Below, piece by piece: positions 18,754-21,590 of a stretch of DNA of 64,000 nucleotides. The notes beneath the pieces are model-generated. The model searched no databases and was not told where the DNA came from. It worked only from the letters and a program-made list of their open reading frames with translations. A program made the position numbers and the translations under genes. Origin of the DNA: Desulfovibrio aminophilus (GTDB lineage: Bacteria; Desulfobacterota; Desulfovibrionia; Desulfovibrionales; Desulfovibrionaceae); assembly GCF_023660105.1 (NCBI RefSeq), contig NZ_JAMHGA010000044.1, positions 124,001 through 188,000 of the forward strand, in the 5' to 3' direction. The number at the start of each line of letters is the position of its first letter. The first letter of the stretch is position 1.

Positions 18754-19905
<1,152 letters not shown>

Positions 19906-19986
19906 GCTCAGCCCTCCTCGGAGAAAATTTCCCGAATCGATAGCCGGTCACGGGAGCGAAGGCAAGAGCCCGGAGTGGGTCCCCGC

Positions 19987-20015
19987 TTGACGGAAGCCCT
20001 TCGCCGCGCTATGGG
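19987..20015 (+). promoter_or_regulatory. Candidate sigma-70 promoter of trpB2
   Basis: TTGACG (19987-19992), 17-bp spacer, TATGGG (20010-20015). The predicted start near 20022 is almost at the leader-peptide ATG at 20024, so either the leader is leaderless, translation uses the second ATG at 20039, or another upstream promoter is used. Confidence 0.45.
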
Positions 20016-20023
20016 GGTTGGTC

Positions 20024-20083
20024 ATGAAGACGCAAGTCATGCACACGATCGGGTATTGGTGGCGCTGGCGGCAGAGGGACTGA
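20024..20083 (+). CDS. Trp leader peptide (attenuation), 19 residues
   Basis: A 19-codon reading frame ATG 20024 to TGA 20081, encoding MKTQVMHTIGYWWRWRQRD. Three Trp codons (20057, 20060, 20066) sit next to each other (WWRW), far above chance, just before a set of alternative hairpins and the tryptophan synthase gene. This is the classic layout of a ribosome-mediated trp attenuator: ribosomes stall at the Trp codons when charged tRNA-Trp is scarce. A second in-frame ATG at 20039 would give a 14-residue version. The ribosome-binding site is weak (gggg about 10 nt upstream). Confidence 0.75.
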   Translation: MKTQVMHTIGYWWRWRQRD

Positions 20084-20141
20084 AGCCGCAAGCGCTGACT
20101 TGAACGATTCAAGGGCCGCGGGCTTCCAGACCGCGGCCCTT
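20062..20141 (+). promoter_or_regulatory. Trp attenuator: alternative hairpins before trpB2
   Basis: Three pairings are visible. Pause hairpin 1:2 joins 20062-20072 with 20085-20095 (10 of 11 pairs), overlapping the Trp codons. Antiterminator 2:3 joins GAAGCCGC (20082-20089) with 20118-20126 (8 pairs, one bulge). Terminator 3:4 joins AAGGGCCGCGG (20111-20121) with CCGCGGCCCTT (20131-20141), 11 perfect pairs, but with only a short T-run. A small extra dyad CTTGAA-cga-TTCAAG lies at 20099-20113. A ribosome stalled at 20057-20068 would free segment 2 and block the terminator. Confidence 0.7.
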
Positions 20142-20205
20142 TCGCATCCAGAAGGAGAAAAGGGCGGTCCGGGAGGCGGCGGCGAAAAACGAGGAGGAAT
20201 ACGCC

Positions 20206-21549
20206 GTGACCGAAGACCGCATCATCCTGCCCATAAGCGAGATGCCCCGGCAGTGGTACAACGCCCTGCCCGACCTGCCCACGCCCCTGGCCCCGCCGCT
20301 GGACCCGCAGACCAAGCAGCCCGTCACCCCGGAGCAGCTCTCGGTCATCTTCCCCAACGCGCTCATCGAGCAGGAGATGAGCCCCAAGCGGCTCATCGAG
20401 ATTCCCGAGCCGGTGCTGGACATCTACCGCCTCTTCCGGCCCACGCCGCTCAAGCGCGCCCGTCGCCTGGAACAGGCCATCGGCACCAAGTGCCGCATCT
20501 ACTACAAGGACGAGTCGGTCTCCCCGGCGGGCTCGCACAAGACGAACACCTCCGTGCCCCAGGTCTACTTCAACAAGATCGAGGGCGTGAAGCGGCTCTC
20601 CACCGAGACCGGCGCGGGCCAGTGGGGCACGGCCCTGTCCTTCGCCTGCAAGATGTTCGGCATGACCTGCACCGTGTACATGGTCAAGGTCAGCTACGAG
20701 ATGAAGCCCTACCGCCAGATCCTCATGCGCATGTATGGCGGCGAGGTCTTCCCCTCGCCCTCGGACCGGACCAACTCGGGCCGGGCCATGCTGGCCAAGG
20801 ACCCGGGCTGCAAGGGCAGCCTCGGCCTGGCCATCTCCGAGGCCGTGGAGGACGCGGCCACCCACGAGGACACAAAGTACACCCTGGGCAGCGTGCTGAA
20901 CCACGTGCTCCTGCACCAGTCCGTGGTCGGCCAGGAGACCCAGAAGCAGTTGGAGATGGCCGGCGAGAAGCCGGACTATCTGGTGGGCTGCGTGGGCGGC
21001 GGCAGCAACTTCGGCGGCTTCGTCCTGCCCTTCCTGCCGCGCAAGCTCCAGGGCGAGAAGATCACCTTCGTGGCCGCCGAGCCCAAGGCCTGCCCCACGC
21101 TCACCCGCGGCGACTACCGCTACGACTACGGCGACGTGGCCCGGCTCACCCCGCTGATGAAGATGCACACCCTGGGCCACGCCTTCATGCCCGCGCCGAT
21201 CCACGCGGGCGGTCTGCGCTACCACGGCGACGCGCCCATCGTCTGCAACCTGCACGCCGACGGACTGGTGGACGCCCGGGCATACTACCAGAACGAGTGC
21301 TTCGAGGCGGCCAAGCTCTTCCTGGCCACCGAGGGCTACCTGCCCGCGCCGGAGACCTCCCACGCCATCAAGGCGGCCATCGACCTGGCCAAGACCGCCG
21401 CGCCCGGCTCGGTCATCGCCTTCCTCTACTCCGGCCACGGCCTGCTGGACCTGGCCTCCTACGAGGCCTACCTCAAGGGCGAGCTGACCAACTTCGAACT
21501 GCCCCAGGCGGACATCGACAGCGCGCTCAAGGACTGCCCCACGATCTGA
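20206..21549 (+). CDS. trpB2: Tryptophan synthase beta chain, TrpB2 type
   Basis: A 447-residue PLP enzyme of the longer TrpB2 class, which joins indole and serine to make tryptophan, often as an indole-scavenging enzyme without TrpA. The PLP lysine is in [12 protein letters not shown] near residue 110; GGGSNFGGF near 265 is the phosphate-binding loop; [12 protein letters not shown] near 140 is the TrpB2 catalytic glutamate region. Length and the N-terminal extension ([14 protein letters not shown]) fit TrpB2 rather than TrpB1. The GTG start at 20206 has aggagg at a good distance. No trpA is adjacent. An attenuator lies upstream and a terminator downstream. Confidence 0.93.
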
Positions 21550-21555
21550 ACGGCG

Positions 21556-21590
21556 AAAAGGCCGGACGGAATTCCGTCCGGCCTTTTTTT
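21556..21590 (+). terminator. Intrinsic terminator after trpB2
   Basis: Perfect 10-bp stem GGCCGGACGG / CCGTCCGGCC (21560-21569 and 21574-21583) with loop AATT, followed by seven T. It is preceded by AAAA so may also serve the convergent glycosidase gene. Confidence 0.93.

Follow-up and report, generated by a model that had tools for sequence, protein, structure and literature searches.

A probable ribosome-mediated tryptophan attenuator upstream of a stand-alone trpB2 gene in Desulfovibrio aminophilus and related bacteria

In the E. coli trp leader the first Trp codon lies about 60 nt from the terminator. The D. aminophilus leader described here resembles trpL of E. coli and other Proteobacteria in its tandem Trp codons, its four alternating strands, a stop codon by strand 2 and the Trp-to-terminator spacing; it differs from the E. 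coli leader in preceding a lone trpB2 instead of trpEDCBA, in having practically no predicted 5' UTR and in its short U-run. A parallel for the transcript start is the rnTrpL/peTrpL leader of Sinorhizobium meliloti, which precedes trpE(G) and whose transcript is reported to start with the trpL ATG and hence is possibly leaderless (PMC7298713, in excerpt), as is predicted for the D. aminophilus leader. For the regulated gene, the nearest precedent is Corynebacterium diphtheriae, in which an attenuator has been predicted before trpB2A (PMC1262725, in excerpt). As in the present locus, the unit behind the predicted Trp attenuator opens with a second copy of trpB; unlike the present locus, trpA lies alongside in a biosynthetic operon. 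TrpR is conserved in gammaproteobacteria and absent from the other classes of Proteobacteria studied (PMC5343134, in excerpt), which leaves room for RNA control. TrpB2 itself has been called indole-scavenging, and is encoded apart from the trp operon outside the Geobacteraceae (PMC2700814, in excerpt).

The window, the whole 64,000-nucleotide stretch analyzed, contains the following features in and around trpB2:

19987..20015, + strand: sigma70-like promoter read in the sequence, TTGACG (19987-19992), 17 nt, TATGGG (20010-20015), then 8 nt and ATG
20024..20083, + strand: trpL-like leader ORF MKTQVMHTIGYWWRWRQRD, 19 codons and a stop (ATG 20024, TGA 20081-20083)
20062..20072, + strand: strand 1, pairing with 20085-20095 (1:2, 10 pairs and one G/A mismatch; sequence and masked folds)
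20082..20095, + strand: strand 2, overlapping the stop codon, pairing with strand 1 via 20085-20095 or with strand 3 via 20082-20089 (sequence and folds)
20111..20126, + strand: strand 3, pairing with strand 2 via 20118-20126 (antiterminator) or with strand 4 via 20111-20121 (terminator) (sequence and folds)
20131..20142, + strand: strand 4 (20131-20141) with a short U-run, 20140-20142 (sequence and covariation in 14 relatives)
20192..20198, + strand: Shine-Dalgarno-like AGGAGGA in front of trpB2, left unpaired when 20024-20260 is folded
20206..21549, + strand: trpB2, TrpB-like PLP enzyme, GTG start (TIGR01415, PRK12391)
21560..21590, strand not given: hairpin with T-run after trpB2, read in the sequence

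The regulated gene had been named trpB2 in a sequence-only reading of this DNA, and its product indeed matches TIGR01415 at 638 bits (cut-off 518.85) and PRK12391 at 692.8 (cut-off 366), placing the Trp-rich leader before a gene of the cognate pathway. Its nearest named relative among the matches listed is from a Desulfovibrio sp. MAG (L006, 89% identity). Given the hairpin and T-run 3' of the gene and an isocitrate dehydrogenase gene upstream on the opposite strand (PRK07006 above cut-off, TIGR00183 slightly below), trpB2 seems to be a single-gene unit. The genome, with a completeness rating of 99.99%, carries some 17 kb outside the window one run of genes with the Pfam domains of trpE, trpG, trpD, trpC, trpF, trpB and trpA; with this full set elsewhere, trpB2 is an additional enzyme. 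No known Rfam element (T-box, leader or riboswitch) matched anywhere in the window at gathering score, nor was there such a match in five comparison loci (L091, L222, L148, L022, L287); a permissive Rfam search of 19950-20260 returned eight matches with E from 0.48 to 9, all far below gathering. A generic automatic scan of 19850-20300 reported neither promoter nor terminator.

Read base by base, the leader has Trp at codons 12, 13 and 15 (20057, 20060 and 20066), so the 19-codon peptide with three Trp within four codons of the sequence-only reading is exact. That reading had also been puzzled by a predicted transcription start only 2 nt before the ATG. The TTGACG-17-TATGGG-8-ATG arrangement fits such a start, which would lie 0-2 nt ahead of the leader ATG, and the virtual absence of a predicted 5' UTR is conserved: all 14 attenuator loci of the family (below) have TTGAC, 17 nt, a hexamer starting TA, 5-9 nt and the leader ATG. 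A promoter-like site this close to the ATG in 14/14 loci points to leaderless translation of the leader, whose mRNA is probably leaderless throughout these loci, and the conserved geometry explains the puzzle. By eye, the leaders of genus g37 show similar promoter-to-leader spacing (L136 has TTGAT).

The three mutually exclusive pairings proposed earlier were found, with 10, 8 and 11 pairs for 1:2, 2:3 and 3:4. The antiterminator (20082-20089 with 20118-20126) has 8 pairs and one bulged G, and the terminator (20111-20121 with 20131-20141) has 11 unbroken pairs. Doubt about the T-run was well founded, as the U-run is only UUU, followed by CGC, and two U of the run pair with strand 3. Compared with shuffled sequences, the fold of 20060-20145 has a z score of -3.79 (0/200 shuffles as good), and the terminator region 20108-20145, with a stem of -24 kcal/mol, scores -3.80 (1/200). 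The antiterminator stretch 20075-20128 is no better than shuffles (z -0.14; 81/200 as good), nor is the 2:3 duplex of the window on its own (p=0.36; 0.485 in an earlier version of the test).

Folding under alternative constraints, which the sequence-only reading had suggested as a check, was performed by masking. In free RNA up to strand 3, 1:2 is preferred (-27.5 vs -18.9 with 2:3 forced). Masking strand 1, as by a ribosome at the Trp codons, gives a best fold with 6/8 of the 2:3 pairs (-16.4; -16.3 with all eight forced), and masking strands 1 and 2, as by a ribosome at the stop codon, leaves 3:4 as the sole remaining pairing (-25.6). With strand 1 masked, the antiterminator is thus the best fold until strand 4 appears; with strand 4 present and strand 1 still masked, 3:4 is more stable than 2:3 (-29.1 vs -22.2), so the switch must be kinetic, the antiterminator acting before strand 4 is made. 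The masked folds agree with the earlier suggestion that the spacing lets a stalled ribosome expose strand 2; the first Trp codon lies 54 nt from the terminator, a distance scored at 48-62 nt across the 14 family loci. Both the masked folds and these 14 relatives show three mutually exclusive pairings placed to match the position of the ribosome, though for the window by itself the 2:3 duplex has the p=0.36 given above.

In the mechanism proposed, RNA polymerase would start at the leader ATG or no more than about 2 nt from it, and ribosomes would translate the leader, probably as a leaderless message. With charged tRNA-Trp plentiful, the ribosome would reach the stop codon and cover strand 2, and the 3:4 terminator would form. 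With charged tRNA-Trp scarce, it would stall at the Trp codons and cover strand 1, leaving 2:3 to pair and RNA polymerase to continue into trpB2, whose product would make Trp, presumably from indole and serine. The element is very probably a ribosome-mediated Trp attenuator setting read-through into the stand-alone trpB2, and as such it would respond to Trp supply and may tune what the sequence-only reading called indole scavenging.

Conservation was examined across Desulfovibrionaceae. A protein search of 288 family genomes gave 278 with some TrpB-like match, of which strong, unbroken trpB2-type matches were taken on; the upstream regions of 77 trpB2 loci from 76 genomes were read (one genome has two copies, L115 and L162), and G267, with trpB2 in fragments, was left out. 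A mechanical rule asked for a small ORF, 8-50 codons long, upstream of trpB2 in which some stretch of five codons includes three or more Trp. It selected 14/77 loci, whereas 20 rounds of dinucleotide shuffling gave 0.25 on average and never more than 1. Two of these 14 were later rejected: L089 has lost its start codon and contains masked letters, and the best hairpin of L094 reaches just -5.0 kcal/mol. Adding by inspection L088 and L128, with two Trp in 5 codons, to the remaining 12 gives 14/77 loci with a Trp-cluster leader and a terminator: three in the genus of the window, seven in g24, three in g36 and one in g27. All three genomes examined of the window's genus have the attenuator, two congener leaders ending WWRWRQRN and WWRRQQHS. 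For 38/77 loci neither this type of leader nor the g37 leader (below) was found.

Trp codons, strand 2 and terminator are in register in an alignment of the 14 loci. The 3:4 pairing has 90.8% of cells paired vs at most 59.9% when slid, and shows compensatory changes at three pairs, with five cells changed on both sides vs 1.3 in shuffles; 0/500 shuffles reach this, the shuffles ignoring relatedness. For 2:3, 81.7% of cells are paired vs at most 51.4% slid, a percentage reached by 3/500 shuffles, and there is one compensatory cell, which 90/500 shuffles reach. For 1:2, with 8 of its 10 pairs counted, 92.9% of cells are paired vs at most 62.4% slid; there is no compensatory cell, and 344/500 shuffles reach its percentage. 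The Trp codons and stems that the sequence-only reading expected upstream of related trpB2 genes are therefore present in 3/3 genomes of the genus and in three further genera, without being universal, and its proposal of a trp attenuator before trpB2 is borne out by them. It is this comparative evidence, taken from sequence, that is decisive for the attenuator.

By eye, the attenuator has been lost in 6/13 trpB2 loci of g24: L089 is a relic, and L090, L092, L093, L094 and L098 keep a TTGACA promoter-like site and have ATC in place of the leader ATG.

Comparable attenuators, as judged from upstream sequences, also precede trpB2 in some relatives and certain less closely related bacteria. In a set of named genomes, the best 80 of at least 519 candidate trpB2 loci were taken and 79 tested; 14/79 have the Trp cluster defined above, vs a shuffle mean of 0.15 (maximum 1), a count that includes L076, later rejected (hairpin -8.1, 2:3 p=0.965). 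WW or WWW leaders thus occur before trpB2 in other Desulfobacterota, including Desulfatibacillum alkenivorans DSM 16219 (L078) and Desulfacinum and Desulfosoma MAGs, and in two Spirochaetes MAGs (L018, L022). A Bacteroidales MAG (L074) has two Trp and a terminator. The label of any of these MAGs may be wrong. Within a phylum sample of 395 genomes, 280 have trpB2-type matches, and 16 of 103 upstream regions, drawn from the top of the 280 genomes among the matches listed and scored without a shuffle control, have the cluster. L247 was rejected (hairpin -3.0), and no terminator was found in L262, which has the Trp cluster. The named and phylum sets overlap, at least L243 and L258 being, judged by length and leader, the same contigs as L029 and L051.

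In one alignment group of 14 rows with WWWQ or WWWR leaders (A3), double changes occur in 5/25 predicted pairs, four of them in the terminator. Read by eye, the antiterminator is GTGTGAAACCG:CGGTTTCACAC in L224 and L249, and GTGCGAGACCG:CGGTCTTGCAC in L252, amounting to two compensatory changes. The 2:3 duplex was compared with shuffles at 40 leader loci, of which 39 could be scored, and was on average the better: mean z was -1.35, with p<=0.05 in 14/39, p<=0.10 in 19 and a median p of 0.10. This test is rough, having taken a wrong or merged hairpin at several loci (e.g. L029, L045, L095, L224, L228, L249, L253, L255). A first version scored 41 of 43 loci tried, with 13 at p<=0.05 and a mean z of -1.31; where two terminators were present it frequently settled on the second, and for L128 it relied on the wrong leader. 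L048, almost identical to L043, was omitted from both tests and from A3.

The alternative that survives best, though we consider it unlikely, is that the leader was functional in an ancestor and that termination in the window's genus is now too weak, leaving trpB2 nearly constitutive with little Trp control. The T-run is just TTT in the window and in L087 (TTTCGTTTTT in L088), whereas runs of five or more T occur in the 11 loci of the other genera, and the g24 losses show that such leaders do disappear. Set against this are the 11 unbroken pairs of the terminator stem and the retention of the Trp codons in all three congeners. The weak U-run could also be read as a sign of translational attenuation, variants of which exist among leader-peptide systems, the leader ribosome freeing or hiding the trpB2 ribosome-binding site. 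That is very improbable, as folding of 20024-20260 leaves 20186-20200 unpaired (0.77-1.0), these positions are some 50 nt past the terminator, and T-runs are longer in relatives of other genera; the open ribosome site argues for transcriptional control. Just as improbable is that the main product is a terminated small RNA or a leader peptide acting in trans, in the manner of rnTrpL/peTrpL, although such an activity and cis attenuation need not exclude each other. In its favour, the transcript probably opens directly with the leader, as in S. meliloti (PMC7298713, in excerpt); against it, the leader peptides, compared by eye, differ from one genus to the next outside the Trp codons and the paired segments. 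Chance occurrence of a Trp-rich ORF and of GC-rich hairpins within intergenic DNA that is itself GC-rich, to which the unremarkable 2:3 duplex of the window would be congenial, is made extremely improbable by the shuffle controls for Trp-cluster ORFs, by conservation over four genera with a covarying terminator and by the same design in other families.

The preferred mechanism, attenuation of transcription by the leader ribosome, is itself textbook. In the literature searched, no description turned up of a lone trpB2 of Desulfobacterota preceded by an attenuator; Vitreschak 2004, Merino 2008 and Lopatovskaya 2010, the last reportedly a survey that compares attenuation systems, may include one, and for that reason we do not claim to describe it first. 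As far as the searches show, its recurrent use before lone trpB2 genes and the conserved, probably leaderless geometry are new. Trp attenuation by the ribosome would thereby be extended from trp operons to a stand-alone, presumably indole-using TrpB2, in Desulfobacterota and beyond. The attenuator predicts that trpB2 is a Trp-starvation gene, and it lets one ask whether attenuation can work from leaderless leaders in groups other than the Rhizobiales.

A different leader precedes trpB2 in genus g37. All 25 trpB2 loci read there (L131-L155) encode, about 155-265 bases upstream of the gene, a peptide of consensus M.TPIS..YFCGRGW(R/L)NVKRP.S with one Trp. The pattern occurs once each in 25/288 family genomes, namely in exactly those 25 of the 36 g37 genomes that have trpB2, and always beside trpB2. 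Mean pairwise dN is 0.12 and dS 0.61, indicating selection on the peptide, though some codons also pair in the RNA, which has a covarying stem-loop and terminator with double changes in 14/36 predicted pairs. Conservation of the peptide sets it apart from plain attenuators and recalls arrest peptides, and by this analogy the g37 leader may be an arrest-type regulatory peptide; a single-Trp attenuator with helpful codon context is the plainer reading.

A third arrangement lies in the same genome, outside the window, where a prephenate-dehydrogenase-like gene (PF02153) before trpE ends ...GWWWRGTMEAGRK* and is followed by a terminator before trpE:

L164:15460-15640 (C44, about 211.5 kb), minus strand: prephenate dehydrogenase tail/trpE junction

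Among the best 30 junction loci (L283-L312) of the 99 family genomes searched, 87 of them with a match, WWW near the enzyme C-terminus is kept in 27/30. A terminator within 160 nt was scored in 21/30. It follows WWW by 49-69 nt in 19 of them, and the hairpins taken in the remaining two, L291 and L296, are probably the wrong ones. The junction antiterminator has p<=0.05 against shuffles in 9/21 (mean z -1.84; p=0.11 in the window's own genome). The WWW C-terminus may thus double as the leader peptide of a trpE attenuator. WWW is kept without a terminator in six loci (L299, L300, L303, L304, L307, L312), however, and so may serve the protein. In D. vulgaris a putative attenuator has been placed ahead of the whole aro-trp supraoperon, not at the prephenate dehydrogenase/trpE junction (PMC1173090, in excerpt).

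It is tempting, but doubtful, to combine these observations into three leader designs by which Desulfovibrionaceae might control Trp supply: probably leaderless Trp-codon leaders before lone trpB2; the single-Trp g37 peptide, under purifying selection, its nascent chain perhaps responding to Trp or indole as arrest peptides do; and an enzyme WWW C-terminus before the trp operon. Both side findings, a possible arrest-type leader peptide and a structural enzyme that may double as a leader peptide, can be tested in cultivable Desulfovibrionaceae.

Two successive terminators precede trpB2 in L222, L025, L043, L210, L228, L250, L253 and L255, as seen by eye in alignment A3. Pairing is possible between the 3' arm of the upstream terminator and the 5' arm of the downstream one, e.g. 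CCCCATGGC with GCCATGGGG, so that an antiterminator at the first could relieve the second as well. This cross-pairing is partly a consequence of the similar, near-palindromic arms, and it contains mismatches in L015, L029 and L041.
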